A stretch of DNA of 35,072 bases, from contig CAMWXM010000002.1 of assembly GCA_947178195.1 (NCBI GenBank), positions 1 through 35,072 on the forward strand, written 5' to 3'. Within the stretch, counting starts at the first letter, position 1. Each line of letters opens with the position of its first letter. Below are positions 430 through 35,072 of the stretch, piece after piece. The stretch comes from an uncultured Ruminococcus sp. (lineage in GTDB: Bacteria > Bacillota > Clostridia > Oscillospirales > Ruminococcaceae). The position numbers were made by a program, and so were the translations under genes. The notes beneath the pieces were generated by a model. That model was given only the letters and a program-made list of their open reading frames with translations. It searched no databases and was not told the origin of the DNA.

Positions 430-1347
430 TTATTGACCCGCTATATTCTGAATATCTCCGGCGTTTTCTTTAAAGGATGCGCCAAGAATTCTCAAAAGCT
501 CACCGCTCTTTGCCAGATCGCTGTTTTTGCTTATTATAACGATTTCAACACGGCGGTTTTTACTTCTACCCTCTTCATTTTCATTTGTAGCGATAGGATA
601 ATCCCCTGCTAGACCTATAGGATATAGCTTTGTTGATTTAATTTTATGATTTCTTTCTAAGAAGTTTGAAATTGTACTTGCACGCTCAGAGGAAAGCAAT
701 CGTGAGTCCACTATTGAGTTCGGAGCGTCGGCGGTATGACCCTTGATTATGACCATTGCAATGTCATCATCGACTTTTTTCAGACATTCTCCCAAAAAAT
801 CGATAACCTCATTGCTGCCCTTTTTAAGGGTCGATTCGTCCGGATTAAAAAGCACATCGTTAGTAAACTGTATATAAATATTTTTAGAAGCATCGCCCAT
901 TCCCGGAGATGCCAAAGCGTCCGTAGAACTGCTTTCGTCCTTCTCGTCAACAATTTCAGCGCCTGTTTTACCCTCTGTTTCGCCCAGTTGGACAATGATA
1001 CTGTCCTGCATACTATGTTTATCCACATATTGCTGTATCGCAACAAACAATTCGTCCATGTCGTTACTTATGCGTTCTTCATCGCTCATTCCGGGATTAA
1101 GCCCCGAATTTGTATTATCCAGAGGATTGTCACCCGAACTAAACATATCGGGAGTAATAACAATCTGATCTACGCTTTCAGTACCAAATCTGTTATTAAA
1201 CGCCTCAACAAGAGCTGCCCATTTGTCCTCGGCAACTGACGCCATACTATAAAGCATTACAAAGAATGTGAGAAGAAGCGTTACCAGGTCGCCATAGGTA
1301 TCCATCCAGCTTCCGCCGCCCTCTTCTTCCTGTTTTTTTCTAGCCAA
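430..1347 (-). CDS. motB: Flagellar motor protein MotB (OmpA-like C-terminus)
   Basis: N-term 'GGGSWMDTYGDLVTLLLTFFVMLYSMA' TM with conserved Asp; C-term OmpA-like 'IKGHTADAP...LSSERASTISNFL...GRSKNRRVEIVI'. Confidence 0.95.
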   Translation of the reverse strand: MARKKQEEEGGGSWMDTYGDLVTLLLTFFVMLYSMASVAEDKWAALVEAFNNRFGTESVDQIVITPDMFSSGDNPLDNTNSGLNPGMSDEERISNDMDELFVAIQQYVDKHSMQDSIIVQLGETEGKTGAEIVDEKDESSSTDALASPGMGDASKNIYIQFTNDVLFNPDESTLKKGSNEVIDFLGECLKKVDDDIAMVIIKGHTADAPNSIVDSRLLSSERASTISNFLERNHKIKSTKLYPIGLAGDYPIATNENEEGRSKNRRVEIVIISKNSDLAKSGELLRILGASFKENAGDIQNIAGQ

Positions 1348-1368
1348 ATCGGATCACACTCCTTGTCT

Positions 1369-2169
1369 TTATTGATTATTATTAGCCGCAATATTTTTAG
1401 CAGCAGATTCCGGAAGCAGACGGGTAAGCTTTTCCTGAATAAAGTTAGGGTTATCTCCGCCCTGGATCGCCTGCACACCTTCTGCAATTATCATCTTACA
1501 AAGATATTCTTCATTATGTCTTTCTTTAAGCTTTCTTGCAATAGGCTTAAAGATAACGTTTGCCATAATAGTACCATAAAATGTCGTAATAAGGGCAACA
1601 GCCATGCTTTGTGCCAGAGCCGCCTGGTCAGACAGATTAGCAAGAAGATTTATAAGACCGATAAGAGTACCAATCATACCGAATGCCGGAGCATATTCCG
1701 CTGCCTGTAAATAAAACGACTGATCCTGTCCGTGTCGTTCTTCCATATAGTCCAATTCATTATTGAGCAGAGCATTTACCTTATCAGGTTCAACCGAGTC
1801 AACAACCAAAAGAAGGGAATTTTTAAGAAATTTGTCTTCAACATTGTTAAGCTTATCTTCAAGAGCAAGAAGACCGTTGATTCTCGCTTCCTTTGCAAAG
1901 AAAACAATTTGCTCTATATAATTTTGAGGATTATATTTTTTAGGCATAAGTACTATCTTTAAATGCTTTGGTATTTTTCCGAGACTTTTTGCCGGGAACG
2001 ATATCATTAAAGCGGCGATCGTTCCGCCTATAACGATCATAACCGAAGGTATATCACCAAACTGCACTAAATTTCCCGGAATAATCGACCATGTATCACC
2101 ATCAAGCATTATTGACAGCAATATAAAGCCTGCCCCAAATATATATCCAAGCACTGACATTAAATCCAT
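1369..2169 (-). CDS. motA: Flagellar motor stator protein MotA
   Basis: MotA/TolQ/ExbB pattern 'YAPAFGMIGTLIGLINLLANL...AQSMAVALITTFYGTIMANVIFKPIARKLK'; upstream of motB. Confidence 0.95.
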   Translation of the reverse strand: MDLMSVLGYIFGAGFILLSIMLDGDTWSIIPGNLVQFGDIPSVMIVIGGTIAALMISFPAKSLGKIPKHLKIVLMPKKYNPQNYIEQIVFFAKEARINGLLALEDKLNNVEDKFLKNSLLLVVDSVEPDKVNALLNNELDYMEERHGQDQSFYLQAAEYAPAFGMIGTLIGLINLLANLSDQAALAQSMAVALITTFYGTIMANVIFKPIARKLKERHNEEYLCKMIIAEGVQAIQGGDNPNFIQEKLTRLLPESAAKNIAANNNQ

Positions 2170-2218
2170 AATTTACGTCCCTTTCTATATGGTATTTTAA
2201 TTTTTATTTATTAATTTA

Positions 2219-2401
2219 TCAAACACGGATGCCTTTTTCAAATTTATAAATCATCTGTAAAATAACCTCTATCGGCTCTTTTACCAGATATGTATCGCCG
2301 TTTGACATTTTTATAGTTGTATCGGGATTTTCCTGAATTGTCTCTATCAAATGATGATTAAGAACAAATTTTTGTTCATTAAGCTTTGTAAGAATTATCA
2401 T
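2219..2401 (-). CDS. swrD: SwrD/FlbD family flagellar protein (internal ATG preferred over the longer ORF)
   Basis: MIILTKLNEQKFVLNHHLIETIQENPDTTIKMSNGDTYLVKEPIEVILQMIYKFEKGIRV is FlbD/SwrD-like; located between flgE and motA as is usual. Confidence 0.88.
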   Translation of the reverse strand: MIILTKLNEQKFVLNHHLIETIQENPDTTIKMSNGDTYLVKEPIEVILQMIYKFEKGIRV

Positions 2402-2487
2402 ACTGCATACTGTGCAAATAAAGCACAAGCTCCTTTTACATTTATGCTGCGGGACGGACATTTTCCCGCCCCGCAGATAATTTCAAA

Positions 2488-4065
2488 TTATCTCTTCAGG
2501 TTAATAAGCTCTTCAAGCATTGTATCAGAAACTGTTATAAGTCTTGAACAAGCCTGGAAACCTCTCTGAGTTGTTATCATATCAGAAAATTCCTGAGAAA
2601 GGTCGGTATTTGAAGTTTCAAGAGTACCGCCAAGAATACTGCCCGTACCGTTACTACCTGCAATTGCAAGCTCCGGTTCGCCCGAGTTCAGTGATTCTGA
2701 GAAGTATGTATCGCCCACCTGTGTAAGACCAGCAGGGTTTGCAAATGTAGCAAGGCTTATCTGACCGAGTTCAAGAATACCGAAAGTAGCGTGAGTTCCG
2801 GTAAGAACGCCCTTATCGTTAATTGAAAGACCTGTAAGATCGGCAACTGTTTGCTCGCCGCCTTCAGTACCACCTGACAAGATAAAGTTACCATCGCCAA
2901 GACCCAGATTTGAAGATGGCTGGCTGGCTGTCATCTGAACCTGACCGCTCATACCATTAATACCATATGCATTAATAGTATTAAGGTTAGGATATGAGAT
3001 TACAATAGAGTCGCTTGAATCTGTACCGCCTCTTTTAAGCACTACCGAACCCGCCGTTGCAAGCTGACTGTCGTTTACTGTTCCTACATAATTACCGATT
3101 GTAATTGTGAGCGCATTAGCAGCTGACAATGACGCTGTAAATGTAGAAGTACCAGTACCGCTGAATTGATCTCCTACTGACTGAATTGCAAAATGCTGAG
3201 CCAGGTTGTTAGGGAGAGTAACACTACCTGAGCGAACGCCGAAATCTGCTTCAACGATTTCCGCACCGGTAAGAGTCTTATTGAATTTAGAAGGGTCACT
3301 CATAGTGATATTAAAATCACCGCCTGCATGTGCAACGCCGCCATTAGCAGCTCTGATAGCATTATTTACTTCCGTATTAAGCTGTGCGAGGCTTGAAAAT
3401 GTTTCATCAGCATTAAGCGTAACTACGATAGATGAGCTTGTAACGGTAGCAGAAGCCTTCTGTCCGATAGGGAGCTTTTTGCTTGTTGCAAAAACTATAT
3501 TAACGTTACTTGCTTCATTCTGATTTGAACCGCTAATAGTATAGCCCACATTGTTTATAGTATCAGTTACTGAGCCTGCCTTTGCGTTTTCATATGGAAG
3601 AGAGATTCTGATTCTGTTTGAAGCCGGATCTTTACCTGTAGGATTTCCGGAAACACCAAGAACAAAGTTACCGTTTACATCAACAAGATTACCTGACGGA
3701 TCAATATCGAGCATACCTGCCTTTGTATAGAAGATATTTCCGTCACCATCCATAACCTGGAGATAGCCTTCACCTGCGATAGCAACGTCAAGAGTATAGC
3801 CAGTTGTAGACATAACCGACTGTGAATGGTTTACGTCAACGCTTCCCAACTTTGCGCCGTAACCTATCTGTGTAGGATTAACACCACCGCTTGTAGGAGT
3901 CGGAGCGGAAGCAGCCGAATTTGTCTGATAATAAACATCTCTGAAGGTTGCTCTACCGTGCTTGTAACCATATGTACTTACGTTTGAAATATTGTTACCA
4001 ACTACGTCCATTTTGTTCTGATGAACCATCATACCTGCAACGCCTGAATATAAAGATCTAACCAT
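2488..4065 (-). CDS. flgE: Flagellar hook protein FlgE
   Basis: MVRSLYSGVAGMMVHQNKMDVVGNNISNVSTYGYK... N-term and ...LSQEFSDMITTQRGFQACSRLITVSDTMLEELINLKR C-term of the FlgE/F/G family; strong SD AAAGGAGG. Confidence 0.93.
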   Translation of the reverse strand: MVRSLYSGVAGMMVHQNKMDVVGNNISNVSTYGYKHGRATFRDVYYQTNSAASAPTPTSGGVNPTQIGYGAKLGSVDVNHSQSVMSTTGYTLDVAIAGEGYLQVMDGDGNIFYTKAGMLDIDPSGNLVDVNGNFVLGVSGNPTGKDPASNRIRISLPYENAKAGSVTDTINNVGYTISGSNQNEASNVNIVFATSKKLPIGQKASATVTSSSIVVTLNADETFSSLAQLNTEVNNAIRAANGGVAHAGGDFNITMSDPSKFNKTLTGAEIVEADFGVRSGSVTLPNNLAQHFAIQSVGDQFSGTGTSTFTASLSAANALTITIGNYVGTVNDSQLATAGSVVLKRGGTDSSDSIVISYPNLNTINAYGINGMSGQVQMTASQPSSNLGLGDGNFILSGGTEGGEQTVADLTGLSINDKGVLTGTHATFGILELGQISLATFANPAGLTQVGDTYFSESLNSGEPELAIAGSNGTGSILGGTLETSNTDLSQEFSDMITTQRGFQACSRLITVSDTMLEELINLKR

Positions 4066-4150
4066 TGTTAATTTCCTCCTTTAATTTTGAGGAACTGTGT
4101 CGTGTACCGTCTGTCGTTCGGGCACACTCGACCCCCTGTAAGGTCCGGTC

Positions 4151-4540
4151 TTAAATTACAACAGTTCCGTCGATGTTTGTAAACACATTTCCTGTCATTT
4201 CTTCTTTATTGACAGTTGTTATTACTGTGTTGTTCTTTACGCTTACTATAAAAGCTGCTTCGTCAAGAAGAATAAGAGTGTCGTCAAGTCCCTTCTCCTC
4301 CGCAAGTCTTACTCCTTCGTTCAGCCTTTCAAGATTATCAATTGACAAATCAATATCTCTTTCCAGCACACGGTTCATAGCGTGTCTTGAAAAGTTGACC
4401 CCAAGAGAGGTATCTATCTGTTCCTGGAGAATATCTCTGAAACTTCTGCATGAAGTTGAATCAGCAACCTCCTGCGGTGTTTTCAAAGGAATACCGGTAG
4501 TAATAGGGGCGGATATGCGTTTGATATCAATTTCGTTCAT
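4151..4540 (-). CDS. Flagellar operon protein (TIGR02530-like)
   Basis: 'NFSRHAMNRVLERDIDLSIDNLERLNEGVRLAEEKGLDDTLILLDEAAFIVSVKNNTVITTV' typical of the small protein between flgD and flgE. Confidence 0.82.
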   Translation of the reverse strand: MNEIDIKRISAPITTGIPLKTPQEVADSTSCRSFRDILQEQIDTSLGVNFSRHAMNRVLERDIDLSIDNLERLNEGVRLAEEKGLDDTLILLDEAAFIVSVKNNTVITTVNKEEMTGNVFTNIDGTVVI

Positions 4541-4577
4541 ACTAACAGACTCCTTTCCGTTAGATATTCAGTCAGAA

Positions 4578-5087
4578 TTACAATTCTTCTGCCTGAACAG
4601 TGTCATTTTTATTTGAATTATTCTTATTATCAGATACTGATGAAGCATTGATTGAAGTAACTTTGCTGTAATCGTAAGGTTTACCGTCTATGTAAATTTT
4701 ATAGTCGTTATTCTCAACAACAATTTTCTCAACCCTGCCAGTGATTGTTTTAGACTCACCGCCGATTTCATTTTTCGTAAGCGAAACTTCCTGTCCCAGC
4801 ATACCCATTACATAATTCTGCTTGGAATACTGACAAAGATCCATCATTTCCTGCATTGTAGCAAACTGTGCCATCTGCGCAAGATACTGAGTATCGTCCA
4901 CCGGATTCATAAAATCCTGATTTGTAAGCTGAGCCACCATAAGATCGAAGAAATCGGTTACAGACAAATCGCTCTTATTGCTTCCAAAAACAGCATTATA
5001 GGTTTTGCCAGTCGAAGCCGTACCGTTTAATATGTCCAGATAATTTCTGTCATAGCTACCAGACGGATTTGTTGAATTTACTGCCAT
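4578..5087 (-). CDS. flgD: Flagellar hook capping protein FlgD
   Basis: 'DFFDLMVAQLTNQDFMNPVDDTQYLAQMAQFATMQEMMDL...GMLGQEVSL' FlgD signature; start placed at MAVNSTN with upstream AAAGGA. Confidence 0.92.
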   Translation of the reverse strand: MAVNSTNPSGSYDRNYLDILNGTASTGKTYNAVFGSNKSDLSVTDFFDLMVAQLTNQDFMNPVDDTQYLAQMAQFATMQEMMDLCQYSKQNYVMGMLGQEVSLTKNEIGGESKTITGRVEKIVVENNDYKIYIDGKPYDYSKVTSINASSVSDNKNNSNKNDTVQAEEL

Positions 5088-5111
5088 AAATACCATCCTT
5101 TCTTAAAAATA

Positions 5112-7184
5112 TTAAATTGTTATATTGAGTGCCGAATCAACTGCGCTTACGCTTATCGATTCGCTCTCGTTTTCATAGGAAACATTTCCTACTGAAAGAT
5201 TACCAAGCTTTTTCCTGATTTTTCTGAACTGATTTTGCTGAGCCCCCTCGTCCTGACGCCGTTCATCATACTGAGTAAACGCCGACTGCTGAGAAGCCGT
5301 CACAGTTTCAAGAGTTTTAACGCTGTTATCTTCAATTTCAACGTTATGCTGATTAAGCGAAGACTGAAGCATCGGTAAATCACGGTTTAAAAGCTGAGCA
5401 GTTTTTGCGCTTGAAGTCACCATAGAAAGAATTGCTTTTCCGCCGTCCTCTGAGACAAGCTTTACAAGAATTTCACCAAGTCCTTCCGGTTTCAGCTTAA
5501 CTGTAAATTCGCTTCTTCCCTTCTGGAGATTTTTAGAGATCCCATCAAAAAGCTGCTTATCTGCCGAAGCGTATTTAGCCTTGTTCAATTCATATTCCGC
5601 ATAAGCTCTGTCGAAGCTTATATCAATTTTTTCTGCGGTATTGTTCATATCCTCCGCAGTCATCAAAACAATTTCCGGCTTAACCTCATCATCTTCATCT
5701 GAGATAACAGGCATTACATTTTCCCTGACGCTTTTCATTGTACGGGCAAAATCAATAGTTTTCTCATCGTTTTCAAGCATATTCTGCGGCTTTGGCAAAA
5801 CAGGCTTCTGCATTGTTTCAGCTGGCTTATAGCTTAAAATTTCCATTTCACCGCTTCTGATCATATCTTCAGGATCAAAAAGCGATCTTTCAGAAATTCT
5901 TTCCATTGCCCCCGATTCGCTGATGTTCTTAAACAGCTGACTATCGGAAATATCGGTAGCTTCCGGTATTCCTGTACCTGTACTGATAAAATCAAGAAGT
6001 CCTGCAAGCTGAAGCGGGTCAGCTTTTATAACATTTTCAGAAAAATCAAAACTGTCTTTTCTGTCCCTTTCGTCATTGTTCATGAGCTCAGGCGTTATAA
6101 TTCCGAAAATATCCGTAAGCTTCTGGGTCATAGCATTATAGGAATGCAAACCTTCATTAGCAACAGCAGTATTACCAGCCTTTGCCGGAACAACATTTTT
6201 ATCAGCATTCGATTGGTTAAAATCAATCTTGTTATAAGCGTTTGGCTTATCAGCATTTTTTCTGCTATCCTTGAGTTTACCAGACGCAATTTTAATGTCG
6301 TATAAGTTAAATTTACTTACATTAACCTGCTGTTCGTCCTTATTGTAAAAAGACTCATAAGGATTTTTAGTTGCGACCGGCTTATCCGTGGTCTGAGGTT
6401 TATCAGCATTGATCTTATCTGTGAGTTCAGGTTTTTCCTTATTCTCAACATTTGGTTTTTTCTCAGATACGGGAGTTTTTATTTCCGGTGAATCCTGCGA
6501 ATCTGGTTTTACCTTGTTCTGGGTTTCAGCATTATTTTCAGGCTTAACAATATTATTTTCGTTTTTTACCTCAAAAGTCTCCTTTTCATCAGTCGGCTTA
6601 ACAATAACCTCTTCATTTTTTACTTTGATGTCATTATTTTCAGGCTTTGAAACAGAAATATCATTTTTATCTTCAACTTCAATAACATTATTTTCATTTT
6701 TGGTATCAACAATGTCAATGTTATTTTCGTTTTTTACTTCAACAGCATTATTTTCATCTGTTATTTCAGCAACATTATCCATAGTATCATTTACATCGCT
6801 GTCTATAACATTATTTTCGCTTTCAGAATCAACGATATCAGCTTCACCTGAGGCCGCAAAAAGATTTTCCAGATCCAGGATTGGAGCCTGAATATTCGGT
6901 AAAATCGCCGAAGCATCATTTTTAACAGCGAACAAATCGGTCATATTCAAAAGATTTTTCAGATAAGACATATCCTGCGTATTCAAAAGATTCTGCAGAA
7001 TTTCCATATCCTGACCTGCAAGAATATCACCTTCATTCTGACCATTCTGCACATTTGCAATAATTACATTCATAATATCTGCAAAGGAAGCGCCTGAGCC
7101 AGTAGTCTGCCCGGCAACAGAGCCGTTTACATTCTGCATCATAGAATCGGTTCTCAATCCCTGAGTAATCTGTCCTGCATCCAT
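5112..7184 (-). CDS. fliK: Flagellar hook-length control protein FliK
   Basis: Conserved C-term 'FTVKLKPEGLGEILVKLVSEDGGKAILSMVTSSAKTAQLLNRDLPMLQSSLNQHNVEIEDNSV'; long low-complexity linker; position between fliJ and flgD; start at MDAGQITQ after AAAGGTGG. Confidence 0.9.
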   Translation of the reverse strand: MDAGQITQGLRTDSMMQNVNGSVAGQTTGSGASFADIMNVIIANVQNGQNEGDILAGQDMEILQNLLNTQDMSYLKNLLNMTDLFAVKNDASAILPNIQAPILDLENLFAASGEADIVDSESENNVIDSDVNDTMDNVAEITDENNAVEVKNENNIDIVDTKNENNVIEVEDKNDISVSKPENNDIKVKNEEVIVKPTDEKETFEVKNENNIVKPENNAETQNKVKPDSQDSPEIKTPVSEKKPNVENKEKPELTDKINADKPQTTDKPVATKNPYESFYNKDEQQVNVSKFNLYDIKIASGKLKDSRKNADKPNAYNKIDFNQSNADKNVVPAKAGNTAVANEGLHSYNAMTQKLTDIFGIITPELMNNDERDRKDSFDFSENVIKADPLQLAGLLDFISTGTGIPEATDISDSQLFKNISESGAMERISERSLFDPEDMIRSGEMEILSYKPAETMQKPVLPKPQNMLENDEKTIDFARTMKSVRENVMPVISDEDDEVKPEIVLMTAEDMNNTAEKIDISFDRAYAEYELNKAKYASADKQLFDGISKNLQKGRSEFTVKLKPEGLGEILVKLVSEDGGKAILSMVTSSAKTAQLLNRDLPMLQSSLNQHNVEIEDNSVKTLETVTASQQSAFTQYDERRQDEGAQQNQFRKIRKKLGNLSVGNVSYENESESISVSAVDSALNITI

Positions 7185-7224
7185 TTTTCTCACCACCTTT
7201 CACTGTAAAATATTATATATATAA

Positions 7225-7665
7225 TCACTCGGTCGAAAGCTTAAATGAAAGAAACTCTTCAATAGCACTTTCATTTTCCTTTATGGCGAGATGATCATAT
7301 TCTGATTTTTGTGCATCTCTGAGCTTTTCAAGCCCTGAGACGTCCTGAGAAACAGCAACAACCTTTCTTCTTTGCTTCTCAATTTTCATATCCATTATGT
7401 TGATTTCATATTTTATCTGAGTCTGTTCACGTTTAATTCCGTCCATCTGCATGCTGAAAAACATAAGCTTAGCAGCAGTCGTACCTTTTGAAACCTCTTC
7501 CACCGATTTCACACGAACATCATCCATAGTCTGAGCCAGAACCTCAAGCCGGTTCAGGTACTCATTTTTTTCACGTCTCAGACTCATTAGGGTATTTTTT
7601 TCAGATTCAAGAATCTGCTTTTTATAATCATACATCTTTTGGAGAGAAAATGCAAATTTTTTCAC
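7225..7665 (-). CDS. fliJ: Flagellar export protein FliJ
   Basis: 'KKFAFSLQKMYDYKKQILESEKNTL' coiled-coil FliJ pattern; between fliI and fliK. Confidence 0.88.
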   Translation of the reverse strand: MKKFAFSLQKMYDYKKQILESEKNTLMSLRREKNEYLNRLEVLAQTMDDVRVKSVEEVSKGTTAAKLMFFSMQMDGIKREQTQIKYEINIMDMKIEKQRRKVVAVSQDVSGLEKLRDAQKSEYDHLAIKENESAIEEFLSFKLSTE

Positions 7666-7681
7666 CTGTTAAATTCCTCCA

Positions 7682-9010
7682 TTATGCTAATATTTCACTC
7701 ATAATAGACACCGTTTGCTCAAAATCGACCTTTTCATCAACAGGCTGCTGAAGAAATTCATTAATTTTCTCCATTCTCTGTATAGCATCGTCAAGCTCAG
7801 GATTTGTACCACTTTTATATGCGCCGATAGAGATAAGATCTGCATTTTCCTGATAAAGCGACATGATTTTTCTTATTTTTGACGCACACCTTTTCTGTTC
7901 CGGAGAAGCCACCTCCGACATAAGACGGCTCAGACTCGCCGTAACGTCGATTGCAGGATAATGATTCTTCATAGCAATTTTTCTTGAAAGCATTATATGT
8001 CCGTCAATAATTCCCCTTACGGTATCTGATACCGGTTCATTTGAATCGTCACCTTCAACAAGCACTGTAAAAAGTCCTGTTATCGAGCCTTTGCGGAAAT
8101 TACCGCAGCGCTCAAGCAACTTTGGCAGTGACGCATAAATTGACGGAGTATAGCCTCTTGCAACCGGAGGCTCACCAATACTGAGACCGATCTCACGTTC
8201 AGCCATGCAGTAACGTGTAAGTGAATCCATCATAAGCAGGACGTCCTTACCCATATCTTTAAAATATTCGGCAATAGTTGTAGCTGTCAGCGCACATTTA
8301 GAGCGAAGCATAGCAGGTTGGTCAGAAGTTGCGACAACCAGCACAGACCTTGCCAGTCCCTCAGGACCCAGGTCACGATTTATAAACTCCATTACTTCCC
8401 TGCCACGCTCTCCCACAAGAGCAATAACATTCACATCTGCCTTGATATTCCTGGCTATCATACCCATAAGAGTACTTTTTCCAACACCGCTTCCCGCAAA
8501 GATTCCCATTCTCTGTCCTTTACCGATGGTCATCATTCCATCTATAGCCTTTACTCCAAGCTCGATAGGCTGAGCGATAGGTGGTCTTTCCAACGGATTA
8601 GAACGGTTTCCGTTAATGCTGTAGCGAGTTCCCTCATCAATAGGACCCTTACCGTCTATAGGATTTCCCAGGGCGTCAATGGTCCTGCCGATCAAAGATT
8701 CACTTACATTTACGGTCAGCTTTTCACGAGTATTTTCAACATAACTGCCATACCCGATACCGTCGGTATCAGAATAAGGCATAAGCAACACCTTGTTATC
8801 TCTAAAGCCTACGACCTCTGCAAGAACCTCTGCTTTGTTCTGCCCTTTTGTAAACATCTTACATACATCTCCGATATTGCATTCAATTCCGGAGGCTTCC
8901 ACTGTCATAGCGACAATCTGTTCTATTTTTCCATATATTTTATAAAAATTATTTAATCTGATATTTGTACATAAATCAGTCTGATCGAGATTAACCTTCA
9001 AAGTTATCAC
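7682..9010 (-). CDS. fliI: Flagellar protein export ATPase FliI
   Basis: Walker A 'GIFAGSGVGKSTLMGMIAR', 'GERGREVMEFI', 'DSLTRYCMAEREIGLSIGEPPVARGYTPS'; overlaps fliH by ~20 nt; start may be GTG 9010 or TTG slightly downstream. Confidence 0.97.
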   Translation of the reverse strand: MITLKVNLDQTDLCTNIRLNNFYKIYGKIEQIVAMTVEASGIECNIGDVCKMFTKGQNKAEVLAEVVGFRDNKVLLMPYSDTDGIGYGSYVENTREKLTVNVSESLIGRTIDALGNPIDGKGPIDEGTRYSINGNRSNPLERPPIAQPIELGVKAIDGMMTIGKGQRMGIFAGSGVGKSTLMGMIARNIKADVNVIALVGERGREVMEFINRDLGPEGLARSVLVVATSDQPAMLRSKCALTATTIAEYFKDMGKDVLLMMDSLTRYCMAEREIGLSIGEPPVARGYTPSIYASLPKLLERCGNFRKGSITGLFTVLVEGDDSNEPVSDTVRGIIDGHIMLSRKIAMKNHYPAIDVTASLSRLMSEVASPEQKRCASKIRKIMSLYQENADLISIGAYKSGTNPELDDAIQRMEKINEFLQQPVDEKVDFEQTVSIMSEILA

Positions 9011-9833
9011 CTTTATCGATAGTATTTAAAAAATCCCTCAGATTTTTCAACTGTTCAGAAAGTGTAGCGACAATAACGCCATCGGAGGTATTCAGAATAC
9101 ATGTATCTCTCGGAACGCTTTCAGAAAGAATAAATTCAACATTCTGTCCCGATTCCTGTAATTCCTTTTCAAGAGAATCTATGTACCCGGAAAGCTGACT
9201 TGAAACATCGGCTTTAATCCATTTTGTATCTCTTGCATACCTCACAGCGTTTTTTATAACGCCGTACATGATCATATCGTCATCTTCAATTTTCTGAGAG
9301 ATCACCTTTTCGCATATTTCAATAGAAAGGTGTTTAAGTTCTTTGGCATACTCTGCAAAAAACTGATTTTTTTCTCTTTTTATCTCTTCAATTGAATGAG
9401 AAATATAAAGAGCAAGATTATCTAAAAGCGCTGTTTTTTCCTTAAAGCCCTTATACGAGCCTTCTTCATAAGCTGCCGCCGCAGTCTGTTGCGCCTTAGC
9501 GTTTGCTTCGCTTAAAATGCGTTCTTTTTCTGCGTTTGCCTGAGCAATAATGACCCCTGCCTCATTTTTGGCGTCACGCAGAAGCATATTACATTCCTTC
9601 TGAGCATTTAATTTTTTCCTGCCCAGTTCGCCGACAAGCTCCTCACGGATCTCCGCAGCTATCTGCTCACGGAGCTCCTGAGTAAGGGCCGGTTGGGTCT
9701 GAGATTCTTCCTTTTGAACTTCCTCATTAGTTTCGGAATCTTCTTCCGGCGTTTCTATTTCAAATTCAATATCAGGAATTTTAACAATTTTTTTGTCCCG
9801 CCTGATGTCATCAGGCTTGAATATCTTACGCAA
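8991..9833 (-). CDS. fliH: Flagellar assembly protein FliH
   Basis: Charged coiled-coil plus FliH/YscL-type C-term; between fliG and fliI, overlapping both. Confidence 0.88.
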   Translation of the reverse strand: MRKIFKPDDIRRDKKIVKIPDIEFEIETPEEDSETNEEVQKEESQTQPALTQELREQIAAEIREELVGELGRKKLNAQKECNMLLRDAKNEAGVIIAQANAEKERILSEANAKAQQTAAAAYEEGSYKGFKEKTALLDNLALYISHSIEEIKREKNQFFAEYAKELKHLSIEICEKVISQKIEDDDMIMYGVIKNAVRYARDTKWIKADVSSQLSGYIDSLEKELQESGQNVEFILSESVPRDTCILNTSDGVIVATLSEQLKNLRDFLNTIDKGDNFEG

Positions 9834-10863
9834 TTATTTCATCCTCTCCGCCTTTGGAAATTACAATCTCACCGGATTCTTCAAGTCGTCTGATAACAGA
9901 AACAATCTTCTGCTGTGCTTCTTCAACATCACGCATACGAACGTTATGCAGATACTGCATATCCGTCTGTATCTGTTCTCTCTGACGCTGTGACATATTG
10001 TTGAATATAACGTTTGTAACCTCTTCTGAAGCCGCCTTGAGGGCAATAGTAAGGTCTTTTGCATCGATTTCTCTGATAAACATCTGAATCTCCATATTGT
10101 CCAGATAGATAATATCGTCGAATACAAACATAAGCTTTTTGATTTCTTCTGCGAGTTCCGGATCTTCGTCCGACAGTTCCTCGAAAATAAATTTCTCGGT
10201 TTTTCTGTCCACTCTGTTCATAATTTCGGCAATGAAGTTTACGCCGCCAAATTCCGTAACGTCCACAGAAGCGATCGCTGACGCTTTTTTACTGAGCACT
10301 GATTCAACAACGGCAATAATTTCCGGTGAAGCTCTGTCCAGATTTGATATTCGCTTAATAACATCAAGCTGTATATCGCTGGGCAGCTCAGAAATAATCT
10401 GCGAAGTCTGTTCAGCGCTCACATAAGAAAGTACAATCGCAATTGTCTGCGGATGCTCATTCTGAAGCATCATCAGTAAATTTTTATAATCAACACGCCT
10501 TAAAAACTCAAAGCTTCTTGTTTTATTTGACTTCAGCACCTGTTCCATAAGAAACGCCGCACGCTGAGGACCGAAGGCCTTATCAAGGACGCCTCTGGCA
10601 TAAGCCTCACCGCCCTCGGTAACCACCTTCTGAGTTACGCAAAGATCGTAAAAGTCCTCTATAATGCGCTGCATTTCATCAGATGAAAGCAGATCAATTT
10701 TAGCAATTTCACTTGTTATAGCTTCAATTTCGTCATCTCTGAGGTATTTATATACTTCCGATGCACTGTCAACACCCAAAGCAATCATTATTGCAGCAAC
10801 TTTAGTGGCCGACGTTATTTTCGTTTCCTGTTCTGTAGTTGCTGTTGATGTTACTGAAGCCAT
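9826..10863 (-). CDS. fliG: Flagellar motor switch protein FliG
   Basis: 'VDYKNLLMMLQNEHPQTIAIVLSYVSAEQTSQIISELP' and 'MFVFDDIIYLDNMEIQMFIREIDAKDLTIALKAA' FliG signatures. Confidence 0.97.
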   Translation of the reverse strand: MASVTSTATTEQETKITSATKVAAIMIALGVDSASEVYKYLRDDEIEAITSEIAKIDLLSSDEMQRIIEDFYDLCVTQKVVTEGGEAYARGVLDKAFGPQRAAFLMEQVLKSNKTRSFEFLRRVDYKNLLMMLQNEHPQTIAIVLSYVSAEQTSQIISELPSDIQLDVIKRISNLDRASPEIIAVVESVLSKKASAIASVDVTEFGGVNFIAEIMNRVDRKTEKFIFEELSDEDPELAEEIKKLMFVFDDIIYLDNMEIQMFIREIDAKDLTIALKAASEEVTNVIFNNMSQRQREQIQTDMQYLHNVRMRDVEEAQQKIVSVIRRLEESGEIVISKGGEDEIIA

Positions 10864-10865
10864 AT

Positions 10866-12476
10866 TTATTCGTCACGCTCCTTCAGCATTGAGCGGATAA
10901 GAGCCGCTGTGATCTCAGGATTATTCTTAGCAAATTCTCTGACTTCTTCTTCTGTTGCCTTTTCTTTCTTGTTGTGTTCATCCGCCTGTTCTTCAAGGCT
11001 CATACTTTCAGCCTCTTCAAGCCTCTGGTTAAGCTCTGCAATAGTCTGTTCATGCTCTGCCTGCTGTGCAAGTCTATGTTTCTTTGCACGTCTGAGAAGC
11101 AAGAATATAATAAGACCTGCAATAAGAAGAAGTGCCAAGAGACAAATACCGCAAATAATAAGAACACGGCGTAAGTTTTCATCAGAATCGTCATCCTTCT
11201 TATTAGGATCATCAATAGGATCCACAGGACTTTTTCTGCTGTAAACTGAAATTTTATCTTCATCAATATTTGTAGCATTTTTAACAAGCATAATAACAGC
11301 ATTTCTGTCATCTCTTGTCATATATGCATTTTCTGTTGTAACTACGACAGATATAGATGCATCGCTTACAGTACCTTGAGCTCTTTCTGTTTGTCTGAGC
11401 AAGTATCCCAGATCGTAATCTCTGTCTCTTTCATAATAAGGCGTATCATCGGTATTGAGATTATCCTCCTCATCATTCTGATAATTAGGAAGATCGGTAT
11501 TTTCTTCTTCTCCAGTCACGCCTCCCGGATTAATGGGATTTCGGTTGGTATTGTATTCAACATGCTCCGTATCTAAGTATCCCACACCTGTTTCTTCATC
11601 AGGAATCAGCTGTTTCAATTCTTCAACGACCTTATTATAGTCGATTTCAACGGAAGCAACTACATCAACTCCGTCGGGGAACATATTCTGAAGTACTCTT
11701 CTTGCCTTATCTTCATATTGCTCTTCAATAGCTTTTACATATTCCATTTTTTCAGCAATATCAATACCCGATTTATCATTCTTAGCTTCCACCTCTTCAG
11801 CTGAAAGAAGCTGATTACCAGTGCTGCTGTCTATAACGGTTACATTTTCAGGCTCTATCTGCTGCGCACTGAACGCAACCAGATTTTTAACCGCCGAAAC
11901 ATTTTCCGCCGTAAACGCCCCACTGTTCACAAGACTCAGAGTAACGCTTGCCTTTGCCTTTTCGTTACTTTCCTTCCACGCATAATCGTTACTTTCAGGG
12001 AAGGTGATAGTAACTACCGCTCCCTTTATGCCTTCGATTCTTTTAAGCGTGGTCTGTAGTCTGTCCTGAAGCTCGAATCTCAGAGTCTGTTCCTTTTCAA
12101 ACTGGGTCATAGTCATACCAAGGTTATCAAAGAACGTACCGTAAGAAGGAGCTGTCTGCGGATAACCTCGCTGAGCGAGATCATAAACCAGCGTATCCCA
12201 CTGATTTCTTCTTACATATATTTCTCCGTTGGAATCAAGCTTAGTTTCAACTCCCTGATTCTGCAGTTCCAGATAAACCGCCGTTGATTCTTCCGAGGAC
12301 ATTCCGGGAAAGAGAACAATGAAATCATCATCTCCCGAGCTATTCAGGATTACCGTCAGGACTATAGCTCCTATTACAAGAGCCGCACCTCCGATTATAG
12401 CTATTTTCAGGATCTTGGTAAGACCATTCCAGAATGTTTTGATTTTTTCCCAAATATTTTTTAACTTATCTTTCAT
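10866..12476 (-). CDS. fliF: Flagellar MS-ring protein FliF
   Basis: 'FIVLFPGMSSEESTAVYLELQNQGVETKLDSNGEIYV...', 'ALNNTD'-region equivalent, two TM segments, C-term FliG-binding acidic tail. Confidence 0.96.
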   Translation of the reverse strand: MKDKLKNIWEKIKTFWNGLTKILKIAIIGGAALVIGAIVLTVILNSSGDDDFIVLFPGMSSEESTAVYLELQNQGVETKLDSNGEIYVRRNQWDTLVYDLAQRGYPQTAPSYGTFFDNLGMTMTQFEKEQTLRFELQDRLQTTLKRIEGIKGAVVTITFPESNDYAWKESNEKAKASVTLSLVNSGAFTAENVSAVKNLVAFSAQQIEPENVTVIDSSTGNQLLSAEEVEAKNDKSGIDIAEKMEYVKAIEEQYEDKARRVLQNMFPDGVDVVASVEIDYNKVVEELKQLIPDEETGVGYLDTEHVEYNTNRNPINPGGVTGEEENTDLPNYQNDEEDNLNTDDTPYYERDRDYDLGYLLRQTERAQGTVSDASISVVVTTENAYMTRDDRNAVIMLVKNATNIDEDKISVYSRKSPVDPIDDPNKKDDDSDENLRRVLIICGICLLALLLIAGLIIFLLLRRAKKHRLAQQAEHEQTIAELNQRLEEAESMSLEEQADEHNKKEKATEEEVREFAKNNPEITAALIRSMLKERDE

Positions 12477-12538
12477 GTATAAAAATCATACTTTCCATCA
12501 AAATTTTATAATATAATTTTACTTGAATCTTACTCAGA

Positions 12539-12850
12539 TCAGACCTGTATATTCAGAATATCCTTATATGCATTAACAGCTCTCGTTGTAAGCTGAACTG
12601 TCATTTCTATAGCCGTCTGAGCCTTACTGGCGTTCATCATAGCCGTTTCAATATCGTTCGAGTTTCCCGTTGCGATATCGTAAGCGCTCTGAAGTGACTG
12701 ACTTTCAAGATCCTTGACATTCTGTATTTTGCTTTTAAGTATATCGCCGAAAGATACTGTATTGTCCTCTTTTTCAGCAGCATTTGCTTTTAAAGGAGTA
12801 ATAAAATCATCTGAAACTGATGATAAACCTGTAAGCGGAACTATGTACAT
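12539..12850 (-). CDS. fliE: Flagellar hook-basal body complex protein FliE
   Basis: 'SFGDILKSKIQNVKDLESQSLQSAYDIATGNSNDIETAMMNASKAQTAIEMTVQLTTRAVNAYKDILNIQV'. Confidence 0.94.
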   Translation of the reverse strand: MYIVPLTGLSSVSDDFITPLKANAAEKEDNTVSFGDILKSKIQNVKDLESQSLQSAYDIATGNSNDIETAMMNASKAQTAIEMTVQLTTRAVNAYKDILNIQV

Positions 12851-12873
12851 TTTAAATTACCTCCAAATTATTT

Positions 12874-13302
12874 TTAACCGTTTCTGCCGATTTCAAGAGC
12901 CTTTGTCGCCATTGCCTTAATGACAGACAATGCACTCATATTAGCCTCATAAACTCTTGAGACTTCCAGAAGATCCACCTGTTCTTCCGTGTTGTTCACA
13001 TTAGGATAGTATACGTATCCGTCCTCGTCTGCATCGGGATGATCCGGGTCGTAAACCGGTTTGAAATCCTCCTGGCTTTCAGCGACTCTTGTCACCCTTA
13101 CGCCGCCGCCCCGAACCTGATTCAGTGCCTCGTTAAAGGTTTGTGTTCTTTCCTGGAAAATCACCTGTTTTCTGCGGTAAGGCTCGCCGCTGGCGGTTCT
13201 GGTAGTATTCTGATTTGCCAGATTCTGCAAAATTATATCCGAACGGAATCTCTCAGCCGTAAGAGCAGAACCGATCGTATTAAGCGAATTAAGAAAAGCC
13301 AT
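12874..13302 (-). CDS. flgC: Flagellar basal-body rod protein FlgC
   Basis: 'AFLNSLNTIGSALTAERFRSDIILQNLANQNTTRT...PYRRKQVIFQE...VRVTRVAESQEDFKPVYDPDHPDAD'. Confidence 0.95.
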   Translation of the reverse strand: MAFLNSLNTIGSALTAERFRSDIILQNLANQNTTRTASGEPYRRKQVIFQERTQTFNEALNQVRGGGVRVTRVAESQEDFKPVYDPDHPDADEDGYVYYPNVNNTEEQVDLLEVSRVYEANMSALSVIKAMATKALEIGRNG

Positions 13303-13320
13303 TTTTTATCACTCCTTGAA

Positions 13321-13683
13321 TTATTTGAAGTTACTGTTCATAAATACATAGCGAAGGTTGCTCACAGCGGAATTATACTGGCTGATAATAGCCGATTCCT
13401 GAATATATGTACTATAAAGCTCAAGACCCTCCTTGTCTACGTCAACATTATTTCCGTCAACTCTGACATCTGTTTCATAAATTTCGGAAACGTCTGCCTT
13501 GAAAGAATATTTCTTTTTACCCTTGTCCATTGCGTCGTCAAGGGTATTCTTAAAGCTTACGGTTTTGTAATTGTAATCTGGTGTATCAATGTTTGCAATA
13601 TTCTGTGTATGTATTTCTTTTTTTAAAGTCATTTGCTTCAGACCGTTTTCCATTGCCTTGAAAGCTATTGAATCAAGATACAT
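13321..13683 (-). CDS. flgB: Flagellar basal-body rod protein FlgB
   Basis: MYLDSIAFKAMENGLKQMTLKKEIHTQNIANIDTPDYNYKTVSF; start at ATG 13681-13683 with SD GGAGG ~8 nt upstream. Confidence 0.93.
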   Translation of the reverse strand: MYLDSIAFKAMENGLKQMTLKKEIHTQNIANIDTPDYNYKTVSFKNTLDDAMDKGKKKYSFKADVSEIYETDVRVDGNNVDVDKEGLELYSTYIQESAIISQYNSAVSNLRYVFMNSNFK

Positions 13684-13775
13684 AATTTCCCTCCACAATA
13701 CTTAGGACGCAGCCGTAAAGAAGCGTCATTAATTTACAGAAGCGTCATATTTTTTAAAGCCTCCTATGTCTTTCA

Positions 13776-23737: not shown

Positions 23738-23932
23738 TTATATACCTCCTAATTTAAATCCTGTCGGACTTGTCTTGCTAAATCAAGTATATTCATAAGA
23801 TTTTGCATTTATGACAAATCCGAGTTGACGAAAATGTTTGGGACGGTTGGTCAGAAAAATTTATCCGGATCGGAACAGAACAAAAATTAGTCGTGGATAA
23901 AACATACTTGCAGCCAATTTTTTAAAAATAGG

Positions 23933-23961
23933 TTGACATGATTGTAATTTTACAGTATAAT
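23933..23961 (+). promoter_or_regulatory. Near-consensus sigma-A promoter driving a putative ncRNA
   Basis: TTGACA (23933-23938)-N17-TATAAT (23956-23961). Confidence 0.8.
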
Positions 23962-23996
23962 AATAAAAAAGGAGCATACCGATAAGCGGTCGCTCC
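23960..23996 (-). terminator. Rho-independent terminator of the peptide transcript (overlaps the 5' end of the + RNA)
   Basis: Minus strand GGAGCGACCGCTTATCGGTATGCTCC followed by TTTTTTATTATT. Confidence 0.75.
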
Positions 23997-24041
23997 CAAA
24001 CTATGATTTTAATAAACCGCTAAGTTTGGTTGCTGGGCGGT

Positions 24042-24110
24042 TTATTTCTTTATATTCTTAATAATCTCATTGATAACAACAAGACTCAGGAAAATAATGA
24101 TAGATTCCAT
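24042..24110 (-). CDS. 22-aa hydrophobic peptide, candidate type I toxin-like (not in ORF track)
   Basis: MESIIIFLSLVVINEIIKNIKK; near-perfect SD GGGAGGTGATagatATG; one hydrophobic segment plus Lys-rich tail. Confidence 0.65.
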   Translation of the reverse strand: MESIIIFLSLVVINEIIKNIKK

Positions 24111-24232
24111 ATCTATCACCTCCCTGCCATGCTTATTTCGCCTGCACATAATTTATGTGTGGACGATACTAAGTATTTTGGCATATGGAGGGAACAACCG
24201 CCTACCGTTTTATGGTATGCTCTATGCCTATT

Positions 24233-24269
24233 AAAAGTACCGTGAGTTACCGCTCCGGTACTTTTTGTC
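24233..24269 (+). terminator. Rho-independent terminator of the + strand ncRNA
   Basis: 10-bp stem AAAAGTACCG (24233-24242)/CGGTACTTTT (24256-24265) with T-run. Confidence 0.75.
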
Positions 24270-24279
24270 ATATAAGAAT

Positions 24280-32169: not shown

Positions 32170-32784
32170 TCATTGAGTATTTTTTTTACAGCGAATAGTA
32201 ACTCTTTCAGTACCATCAAATGTACAGGTAAACATAGACAAATCCCAATCTCCTGCCAGCATTTTATCCGCACTATTTCCATCTATAATTTCAATATAAT
32301 CCACATAGAATTCATAAACTTTTCCGTTCACATCAATAAAATAAACTTCATCGTCCAGTATAAGATTTTTAAGTTTACCAAAGTGTCCCGAATAGTTATG
32401 GGCAGCCAAAATCATGCTACTGTCGATAGTTCCGCTGTATCTGCATGGTGCAATCTTGAGGTTATCATAATTCCACTCGCTTAGCACTGGCAATTTAATA
32501 TTGATAGCCGGAATATCAATAATGCCTATGTAATTTTTATTTTTCACCATAATTGCATCAAGAGTATCCGTTTCATTCAGATTCTCATGGCTTACGTTCA
32601 GTTCAATATTTGTATTGTTTGTTTCAGAACGCTGAGTGATTTCTTCTTCAAGCTTTACAAGTACGCTCATAGATTTTTTTTCAGCTTCCCTATCCGCATG
32701 AATATTAAAAACAGCAAGGGACAATGCTGCGATAACAAGCATTGCCCCTAAAATCATCAATGTAACGCCAAGTTTACTTTTCAT
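32170..32784 (-). CDS. Sortase family protein (class B/D-like; class not resolved)
   Basis: N-term TM; 'IGIIDIPAINIKLPVLSE', catalytic 'ILAAHNYSGHFGKL', 'FTCTFDGTERVTIRC'; start at MKSKLG. Confidence 0.85.
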   Translation of the reverse strand: MKSKLGVTLMILGAMLVIAALSLAVFNIHADREAEKKSMSVLVKLEEEITQRSETNNTNIELNVSHENLNETDTLDAIMVKNKNYIGIIDIPAINIKLPVLSEWNYDNLKIAPCRYSGTIDSSMILAAHNYSGHFGKLKNLILDDEVYFIDVNGKVYEFYVDYIEIIDGNSADKMLAGDWDLSMFTCTFDGTERVTIRCKKNTQ

Positions 32785-33886
32785 ATTTTTTCCTCTTGTG
32801 CGAATTAAATTTCCAGCCCGCCGCAAAAACGATCAAGCCTAATGCTGACATTGCAGGAACCGGCCACCATAATTGTCCAGTCTGAGGAAGCTGCTTTGAG
32901 TGTACAGCAGGTTTAACTTCTACCTGCGGTGTCGGAGCTTTAGGTGCAAGATTTCCTCTGTTCACTATAATATATTCAATATCATGTTCCTTTGGATTTT
33001 CAGGATTAACATTTATATTATTTTCGGAATAGGTAACGCTGTAACCATCCAATTTGCCCTCTTCAATTACAGTCCACTTATATTTTGAAGATAATTTTTC
33101 AAAGGTATAAGTCCAGTTATTTTCTTCGCTGAGAGTGACTGTTTTAAATTTCTCACCATCTTTTGCAAGCGTAACATCTATCGATTTAGGGCGTGTTTTT
33201 TCATCATCGTTTTCCCAGATTTTTTTTACAATACCCGAATAATGAAATACTCTGTTATTTGCGCCTAAAACCGTAAGCTTTGGCATAGCCGTAACATTAT
33301 AACTCCAATTCGGAATACCCGACCCGTCGTTTTGGGTTAATGTCACAAGCGATGGTGCAGGAAGATAATATTTACCGTTAATAGTAACATCTGAACCACT
33401 TAAAAGATACATTCCATACGAAAGACCGCTAAATTTAATTATACCCTCGGCGTCTGTAGTTCCTGAACCCAACGGCTGAATATTGTTTATCTCTGCATAT
33501 GCCTCAAGAGTCTCAGCAGCGACAACAATTTGCGAAGTACTAAGATTATTTAAGCTAATATTACAGTTTTCAAATTCATCAGTATTAATATAAGCATTAT
33601 CAGAATTTCTTTCAGCGACCTTAAAAATTTTCCAATCCATGCCGCTTAATACTGATTTATTATCATGGCAATCTATTGTTAATACATTATTATTAACGTT
33701 TATGGTACTCTCTTCAGGTAAATCATCAACGTTATTTTCAGAGTTTAAATCCTCTTCGTAATTCTCTGAACTGACATCAGTTACAAAATTTTCAGTTATA
33801 TCTTCATCTTCAGCATAAACGCCAAAAGTTCCCGAGATCATAAACATCATAAGAGTAACAAAAACTGCAAATAATTTACTTTTCAC
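32774..33886 (-). CDS. LPXTG-anchored pilin-like protein with Cna_B-type domain
   Basis: Signal peptide 'KSKLFAVFVTLMMFMISGTFGVYAED'; 'VKKIWENDDEKTRPKSIDVTLAKDGEKFKTVTLSEENNWTYTFEKL'; C-term 'LPQTGQLWWPVPAMSALGLIVFAAGWKFNSHKRKKYEK'; GTG start with SD GGTGGTGATC. Confidence 0.9.
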   Translation of the reverse strand: MKSKLFAVFVTLMMFMISGTFGVYAEDEDITENFVTDVSSENYEEDLNSENNVDDLPEESTINVNNNVLTIDCHDNKSVLSGMDWKIFKVAERNSDNAYINTDEFENCNISLNNLSTSQIVVAAETLEAYAEINNIQPLGSGTTDAEGIIKFSGLSYGMYLLSGSDVTINGKYYLPAPSLVTLTQNDGSGIPNWSYNVTAMPKLTVLGANNRVFHYSGIVKKIWENDDEKTRPKSIDVTLAKDGEKFKTVTLSEENNWTYTFEKLSSKYKWTVIEEGKLDGYSVTYSENNINVNPENPKEHDIEYIIVNRGNLAPKAPTPQVEVKPAVHSKQLPQTGQLWWPVPAMSALGLIVFAAGWKFNSHKRKKYEK

Positions 33887-33891
33887 TATGA

Positions 33892-34734
33892 TCACCACCC
33901 TTTTTTCTTAGAACGTTTTTTTCTACGGTTGCCTATAATGGTAACAACAATAATAGCTATTAAAAACGGCATTGCTATAAATATTGCAACTATCATAGGT
34001 TCTACCTGAACTGCGTCCGCACCAATTCTTATAGAATGAGTATTTCCGGCTTCCAATCTTGTGCCTCTGACAAGAAGTCTATGGGTATTAATACCATAAG
34101 GAGTACAAGTAATAAGCGTTACCAGATCCCGACCTTCCACAATTTGAATTTTGCTTAAATCTTCGGGAGTCACCACATTAATTTCGTCAATAGAATATTT
34201 TAGAACCTCATTCAAAACGGTTATTTCAAAGGTATCGCCAATATCCAGCCTGTCAAGATCGCTGAAAAGCTTGGCTGACGGAAGTCCCCTATGAGCAGAA
34301 ATAACTGCATGAGTACTAACGCCGCCTATTGGCAAAGTCGAACCCTGAAGATGACCCACGGCAACATTTAAAACCTCTGCGCTTGTTCCGTGATAAATCG
34401 GGAGTTGAACGTCAATTTTAGGAATAGTTATATATCCCATAATTCCCGTACCTGTTACGTCAAGCGTTTGTTCATAGCCATAAACCGCACTATAATTTTC
34501 AAGAGGAGCATATACTTCGCTAAGCTTTTTATTATAATTCTCAGCAGCTTCTCTCATTTTGACATGTTCGGTATCGTCCATTTGGTTTAAAACGCTGTCA
34601 TAATGTGTAATTGCTCTTCGCTGTTCTCTGGTATTCAGATAGTCGCTTATTGTTGGATAGAGCATTAAGGAGAGTCCCGATAGAAAAACAATTATTAATA
34701 ACCCCGTTGAAAAATATTTTTTCTTCTTCCTCAT
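33892..34734 (-). CDS. srtC: Class C sortase (pilus assembly)
   Basis: 'TGIMGYITIPKIDVQLPIYHGTS...GVSTHAVISAHRGLPSAKLFSDLDRLDIGD', 'LVTLITCTPYGINTHRLLVRGTR'; start at MRKKKK with SD AAGGAG. Confidence 0.95.
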   Translation of the reverse strand: MRKKKKYFSTGLLIIVFLSGLSLMLYPTISDYLNTREQRRAITHYDSVLNQMDDTEHVKMREAAENYNKKLSEVYAPLENYSAVYGYEQTLDVTGTGIMGYITIPKIDVQLPIYHGTSAEVLNVAVGHLQGSTLPIGGVSTHAVISAHRGLPSAKLFSDLDRLDIGDTFEITVLNEVLKYSIDEINVVTPEDLSKIQIVEGRDLVTLITCTPYGINTHRLLVRGTRLEAGNTHSIRIGADAVQVEPMIVAIFIAMPFLIAIIVVTIIGNRRKKRSKKKGW

Positions 34735-34754
34735 GAAACGCTCCTTAACGCTGC

Positions 34755-34772
34755 CCCCGGAAAGCTCCGGGG
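34755..34772 (-). promoter_or_regulatory. GC-rich intergenic hairpin between pilin and srtC (attenuator or mRNA stability element)
   Basis: CCCCGGA-AAGC-TCCGGGG; no T-run after it on the minus strand. Confidence 0.5.
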
Positions 34773-34811
34773 ACATTGTTATGATTTAGAAAAATTCTTT
34801 AATATTTATGT

Positions 34812-35072
34812 TTATTTGTTTACACGTCTTTTAACTACTAAAAGAACTACTGCGCCAGCCATTAAAACGCCGCCTGCAATGTAGAATATTGTTGTACCGA
34901 TGCCGCCTGTGCCGACTAACGCTGTACCGGATGTGTTTAAAATTAATAATGTACCATTATCTAATTTATCTAATGTTGATATATTATCATCAGTCATCGA
35001 TACAGATCGCTTAGTAACACCTGGAGTATAGGTCTCATTACCATACGACGCAGTTAATTTTAATTTCACATA
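34812..35072 (-). CDS. C-terminal fragment of a backbone pilin, 5' end outside window; sorting signal LVGTG
   Basis: Open to the window edge; C-term 'LVGTGGIGTTIFYIAGGVLMAGAVVLLVVKRRVNK' = sorting motif + TM + basic tail, upstream of class C sortase. Confidence 0.8.
   Translation of the reverse strand, partial: YVKLKLTASYGNETYTPGVTKRSVSMTDDNISTLDKLDNGTLLILNTSGTALVGTGGIGTTIFYIAGGVLMAGAVVLLVVKRRVNK

Follow-up and report, generated by a model that had tools for sequence, protein, structure and literature searches.

We found that a stretch of 35,072 nucleotides from an uncultured Ruminococcus sp. (hereafter the window) very probably carries one copy of a multi-copy family of type I toxin-antitoxin units of the Clostridia, which has lost here the promoter of its toxin gene and which, when intact, would act by the mechanism proposed below. 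The initial annotation had described this locus as a compact type I-like module, a 22-aa hydrophobic peptide opposed by an antisense RNA; the homologous loci support a module of this type, but not a lone compact locus, the unit belonging instead to a large and often tandem family. A short hydrophobic ORF together with an opposed promoter and RNA was found in 63 units, and the homologues also present a conserved frame, consensus promoters on both strands, a predicted leader hairpin that sequesters the Shine-Dalgarno (SD) sequence, a convergent 3' overlap and members that match the Hol_Tox toxins. Elsewhere in the window, both on the minus strand, are what we take to be a flagellar basal-body and motor gene cluster (430-13698) and, presumably, a sortase with pilin-like surface proteins (32170-35069).

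Table 1. Features of the toxin-antitoxin unit in the window (position 1 is the first nucleotide of the window).
Feature	Position	Strand	Basis
Antitoxin RNA promoter, TTGACA-N17-TATAAT (12/12)	23933..23961	+	Same element upstream of nearly all family units
Antitoxin RNA (predicted, ~90 nt), made up of 5' hairpin, linker and terminator	23968..24060	+	Covariance model R1 and 62-sequence alignment
Antitoxin 5' hairpin, GGAGC-AUACCG-AUAAG-CGGU-CGCUCC, near-invariant	23971..23997	+	89% mean pairwise identity in 62 units
Hypervariable linker (proposed cognate barcode)	23998..24010	+	40.5% mean pairwise identity
Terminator hairpin of the antitoxin, followed by a U-rich tail that reaches about 24060	24011..24046	+	Six pairs with compensatory changes
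ORF of 22-aa hydrophobic peptide, MESIIIFLSLVVINEIIKNIKK	24042..24110	-	Homologue MESIIIFLILVALNEVIKNIKK in intact unit L054
SD sequence GGGAGG	24119..24124	-	Sequence
CCCUCC arm, predicted to sequester the SD	24187..24192	-	Leader fold; similar SD hairpins predicted in most units examined
5' leader repeat AGAGCATACC	24214..24223	-	Repeats the antitoxin 5' end in the same sense and complements the 3' end of the toxin mRNA
Toxin promoter site of relatives, degraded here	24230..24271	-	Site occupied by a promoter in 55 of the 63 units with an ORF

The plus-strand promoter of the initial annotation is present and is the sole 12/12 match to TTGACA-N17-TATAAT in the window, in which four matches are found against 0.60 expected when one mismatch is allowed. 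Downstream of it, R1 matches positions 23969-24065 with an E-value of 7.7e-16. The complement of the antitoxin 5' hairpin corresponds to the 3' terminator of the toxin mRNA, and the GGAGC..GCTCC hairpin followed by six T residues that had been noticed on the minus strand was indeed found at about 23965-23997. The toxin stop codon lies within the 3' arm of the antitoxin terminator stem and the last codons lie in its U-rich tail, so that the basic C-terminus of the toxin and the tail of the antitoxin share bases. Folding is far below that of dinucleotide shuffles on both strands (z = -9.4 for plus and -10.0 for minus), none of 100 shuffles being as good. A hairpin at 24233-24269 had been taken for the terminator of the plus-strand RNA; the hairpin exists, but we place the terminator at the earlier one, because that hairpin is conserved and six of its pairs present compensatory changes across the family, a number reached by one of 500 shuffles with the structure fixed by the analyst. 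The plus-strand RNA probably ends near 24,046-24,060. Given this terminator, the two RNAs would overlap only around the toxin stop codon and in the 3' UTR of the toxin, and not almost completely as had been suggested.

On the minus strand, the SD-led ORF was confirmed, and the peptide, which had not been recognised as a named toxin, indeed matches no protein family. Conservation of the 22-aa frame had been put forward as a check, and the frame is kept in homologous loci, whose products include the relatives MESIIIFLILVALNEVIKNIKK and MDFVYLILAILLLVALDNVIKSIKK. At the site of the toxin promoter, the window retains only TTTAAT (24230-24235) and ATGACA (24266-24271), about 30 bp apart and with a hairpin between them, and the best of the other minus-strand candidates for this ORF are poor and located further upstream. 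The initial annotation was thus right that there is no convincing minus-strand promoter here, but this is a defect of the window copy, as 55 of the 63 units have one at this site, and it is normal in L054, the closest intact relative of the window unit. Since the toxin promoter is broken and the antitoxin promoter is perfect, the window unit is probably, as judged from its sequence, a remnant making antitoxin only, with a silent toxin gene. Its ORF is still open despite the dead-looking promoter, and an unrecognised promoter may lie further upstream.

For the analysis of the family, 80 non-redundant units were extracted, 63 of them with an assignable minus-strand ORF, and 62 were aligned. The plus strand is organised as a promoter, the near-invariant 5' hairpin, a linker of 13-26 nt, the terminator hairpin and a U-rich tail. 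No compensatory changes were detected in the 5' hairpin within the genus, where it is near-invariant and therefore too conserved for covariation. For the minus strand, 55 of the 63 units with an ORF have in the usual place a promoter that deviates from TTGACA-N17-TATAAT by two mismatches or fewer (by 0-1 in 52 units), and one with a single mismatch lies further upstream in L075, L067 and L050-1224; among these 63 units, no convincing minus-strand promoter was found in the window, L085, L076, L059 and L087. The toxin mRNA would start with a copy of the antitoxin 5' sequence, followed usually by a tight SD hairpin (for example CUCCC-GGAA-GGGAG) and by the ORF, and partition function calculations predict a mostly paired SD in most of 20 mRNAs (mean unpaired 0.23), three of them being at 0.75-0.80. 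The same roughly 110-130-bp hairpin-forming insert occurs at the same place of the toxin leader in two paralogous units of the CAMBLM genome (L067 and L075), and the leaders of L077 and L049 contain other hairpin inserts. Of the units L032-1257, L078-54, L061+1910 and L086+2710, in which no toxin ORF could be assigned, L032-1257 and L061+1910 resemble antitoxin-only remnants and the others may have been cut by contig ends.

A DNA search with the window segment gave 10 matches in its own genome, nine of them beyond the window, and matched 17 of 61 genomes including its own, with clustered matches in genomes G006, G008, G001 and G007. An exact motif scan of named genomes identified 45 DNA stretches, mostly from MAGs labelled Ruminococcus, Oscillospiraceae or Clostridia, but also from the isolate Pseudoruminococcus massiliensis, a cultured species whose locus L061 contains two complete units; a contig labelled Candidatus Melainabacteria (L058), which bears Ruminococcus-type units, is probably mis-binned. 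With R1, the window unit is one of 10 strong copies in its own genome (E < 1e-5), and at least six other copies in that genome look intact (L035, L036, L040, L098, L099 and L103, the plus-strand promoter of L103 not being cleanly placed). In relatives the units, about 270 bp long with inverted end repeats, are tandemly arrayed, often in rows. A covariance-model search of the Clostridia had been called for, and R1 finds the antitoxin RNA across the family, order and class: 101 of 299 genomes of the family were matched at E <= 0.001 and, at E <= 1e-4, 85 of 347 genomes of the order, 58 of 392 of the class and 21 of 399 of the phylum, in overlapping samples that share the same near relatives and with Infernal E-values that are rough. 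Many of the distant matches inspected, though not all, keep both promoters and an SD-led hydrophobic minus-strand ORF. Searches of phage and plasmid collections with the unit DNA gave marginal short matches only, and no paper on the family was found in a literature search that covered sources other than subscription journals and supplements. The family is large, real, conserved and widespread, and it appears to be new as an RNA family.

Three units of the window's own genome (L098, L099 and L103, on C130, C60 and C34) form a second subfamily, distinguished by its 5' hairpin (GGTGCTGCGATAAGCGGTTTACC or a similar sequence) and with the toxin MTIMEVLTFLLVIIEIIKFNNKKK and perfect toxin promoters. 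R1 also scores weakly (E 0.03-0.25) on the opposite strand of the own-genome units C130:7189-7268, C132:3048-3126 and C3:15940-16020, owing to the near-symmetry of the element.

The minus-strand ORFs of the family encode hydrophobic peptides of 22-40 aa ending in K/R, and ORFs of 22-35 aa present conserved frames, SD sequences and basic tails. At least three kinds occur in the genus, namely MTWNDF..NKRK, MNNYVTWNDLIQ..FHNKRK and the window peptide with its two relatives given above. Ten genus toxins had no match at cut-off in Pfam or NCBIfam and no significant one in PHROGs, sub-threshold matches apart, and a PDB search with genus toxins returned nothing. Hol_Tox, the Pfam family of BsrE-like toxins (PF16935, cut-off 23.3 bits), matched neither the window peptide nor the window genome, and of 41 aligned genus toxins three match it weakly, most having no match above the cut-off. 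Three toxins located via the RNA model alone (L157, L155 and L174), however, pass this cut-off, the scores being 32.0, 29.5 and 37.1 bits, and, because these loci were found by the RNA alone, the matches constitute independent support for the toxin-antitoxin reading. In tblastn searches, one Hol_Tox-like toxin had no phage or plasmid match and a second one weakly matched plasmids of Bacilli; R1 gave no convincing antitoxin match at two plasmid loci, from Planococcus and Halobacillus, that encode toxin relatives.

Conservation along the antitoxin is highly uneven, with mean pairwise identities in 62 units of 0.89 for the 5' hairpin, 0.41 for the linker, 0.78 and 0.86 for the terminator stem arms and 0.44 for the terminator loop. 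In twelve within-genome pairs with an ORF identity of at least 0.90, mean identity was 0.95 for the ORF and 0.60 for the linker, against 0.55 for shuffled linkers, and in six of the twelve the linker was no better than its shuffles. Three linkers recur unchanged in different genomes, which together with the divergence between paralogs indicates that linkers can be conserved over species and yet differ between paralogs. The predicted linker duplex is -22.6 kcal/mol for cognate and -4.2 kcal/mol for non-cognate pairs, with no overlap (cognate range -14.0 to -32.3; best non-cognate within a genome -11.4), and in each of the two RNAs most of the linker is predicted to be free of pairing (unpaired 0.71 in one, against 0.35 outside the linker, and 0.57 against 0.33 in the other). 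It is reasonable to suppose that the linker is a specificity element, a barcode of the cognate pair with a role comparable to that of the Sib target recognition domains. With linker and loop being what separates otherwise near-identical paralogs, an antitoxin would be expected to act mainly on its cognate toxin.

The antitoxin 5' arm was also compared with the leader of its own toxin in 35 diverse units, resulting in a mean score of 8.56, somewhat inflated by unit relatedness, against a mean of 5.56 (sd 0.21) for permuted leaders and a maximum of 6.27 in 2000 permutations; the own leader ranked first in 22 of the 35. Because the 5' end of the toxin mRNA copies that of the antitoxin, it is complementary to the 3' end of the same mRNA, and folding predicts about 22 pairs between the two ends. 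The partition function did not support the idea that the SD is exposed or masked by such a 5'-3' closure (mean unpaired 0.23 at full length and 0.17 without the 3' UTR). The predicted SD pairing is thus almost independent of the 3' UTR, and the model does not extend to a switch of translation by the antitoxin or by the closure.

We propose that in an intact unit the plus-strand promoter would yield an antitoxin RNA of ~90-100 nt, with the conserved 5' hairpin, the unpaired variable linker and the terminator hairpin, and that the opposed consensus promoter would yield a toxin mRNA of ~220-270 nt, encoding a membrane peptide of 22-40 aa that has a single helix and a basic C-terminus. This mRNA would be folded for poor translation, with the SD held in the leader hairpin and the two ends of the molecule able to pair with each other. 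The antitoxin is antisense to the part of the toxin mRNA that comprises the stop codon and the 3' UTR. Its contact with this mRNA would begin at the linker and the terminator loop, which are exposed, and would lead to mRNA degradation with or without a tighter occlusion of the SD, and linker and loop differences would restrict the antitoxin mainly to its own toxin. The window copy would provide antitoxin only.

The known systems invoked in the initial annotation are apt in part only. BsrE/SR5 and TxpA/RatA are the best fit among known systems, and Fst differs by the orientation of its repeats. Similarly to bsrE/SR5, bsrG/SR4 and txpA/RatA, the toxins here are short and single-helix with a charged C-terminus, the antitoxin lies at the 3' end of the toxin mRNA, and in 62 aligned units the antitoxin terminator is at the toxin stop codon, a BsrE/SR5-like layout in which the two RNAs would pair. 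In B. subtilis, the antitoxins bind the 3' ends of the toxin mRNAs and promote their decay, SR4 binding also extends SD sequestration, and toxin RNAs are about 255-290 nt (PMC6562991), compared with ~220-270 nt here; BsrE/BsrH-like systems have been described in Bacillus, Lactobacillus, Halobacillus and Enterococcus (PMC6562991). The antitoxin is about 90-100 nt here versus 163-222 nt in the B. subtilis systems, from which the present family also differs by toxins mostly outside Hol_Tox, by chromosomal tandem arrays with divergent linkers, and by same-sense 5' repeats in both RNAs. In Clostridia, CD2517.1/RCd8 and other systems of C. difficile also combine convergent small membrane toxins and antisense RNAs, with toxins of 34-59 aa located mostly in prophage regions (PMC6563280). 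In contrast, the toxins described here have 22-40 aa and the units adjoin ordinary chromosomal genes where examined.

In the Fst/RNAII par locus, direct DNA repeats give rise to complementary 5' regions in the two RNAs. Convergent RNAs, a short hydrophobic toxin and SD sequestration are shared with this system, but here the end repeats are inverted in the DNA, so that both RNAs carry the same sequence in the same sense, and there is no Rfam match. The E. coli Sib RNAs span the whole ibs gene. Both ibs/Sib and the present family comprise several similar short toxins opposed by cis antisense RNAs; in the present family, unlike Sib, the overlap of the antitoxin is limited to the 3' region, and specificity would reside in the linker and loop; SibC uses two target recognition domains (PMC8309996).

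Other explanations were considered both for the family and for the window copy. The units might form regulatory pairs of an antisense RNA and a small protein, the peptide being a membrane regulator like the ComI competence inhibitor and not a self-toxin. Two members do give sub-threshold scores with the ComI model (28.3 and 22.9 bits, the cut-off being 55), and the 22-aa peptide might be weakly toxic; PepG1 and Hol_Tox matches occur too, however, and toxins are a better fit for the tandem arrays, the orphan copies and the strong repression in several layers, which makes this explanation unlikely. A small mobile or repeat element of the MITE or REP kind, bounded by inverted repeats and devoid of toxin function, would account for multi-copy, dispersed and tandem units of this size with inverted end repeats, and nine genus relatives lack the unit in front of the peptidyl-prolyl isomerase gene that adjoins it in the window (one of them with 167 bp upstream only), an absence that fits mobility or lineage-specific gain, neither being proven. 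Nevertheless, from one genus to another the ORFs retain their frame, SD, hydrophobic core and basic tail while other parts change completely, two opposed consensus promoters and six compensatory terminator pairs are present, and distant copies encode Hol_Tox toxins, so that we regard such an element as very improbable.

For the window copy alone, the second hairpin with its T-run at 24233-24269 would suit a fully functional pair whose plus-strand RNA continues to 24269 and spans the whole toxin transcript; we find this improbable, given that the conserved terminator comes earlier and that, unlike most relatives, the window lacks a usable minus-strand promoter. Finally, Rfam detected no family at gathering score in the window and, at permissive thresholds, gave sub-threshold matches only, among them the pT181 ctRNA (RF00242; 30.9 bits versus 56 needed, E 0.022), a replication-control RNA of plasmid type with a similar two-hairpin antisense shape. 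That the family is such an RNA is scarcely conceivable, as its chromosomal copies adjoin ordinary genes with no rep gene and the opposed transcript would encode a short hydrophobic peptide.

The preferred reading, a type I toxin-antitoxin family, could be extended to a phylum-wide and uncatalogued family of antitoxins, in which tandem paralogs would be kept independent by fast-diverging linker and loop barcodes on a near-constant toxin and scaffold, and in which the antitoxin would compete with the 5'-3' closure of the mRNA by means of the copied 5' sequence; this extension is advanced tentatively, at slightly less than even confidence. The family as such would represent a large and apparently unannotated class of toxin-antitoxin systems in gut and rumen Clostridia, in which, according to reviews, the type I systems described are mostly those of C. 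difficile. Its searchable signature is the RNA and not the 22-40 aa peptide, the RNA recovering toxins missed by protein models and tying them to BsrE-like toxins, and the tandem arrays, with near-identical toxins and unrelated linkers, constitute a natural experiment on how RNA antitoxins gain and maintain their specificity.
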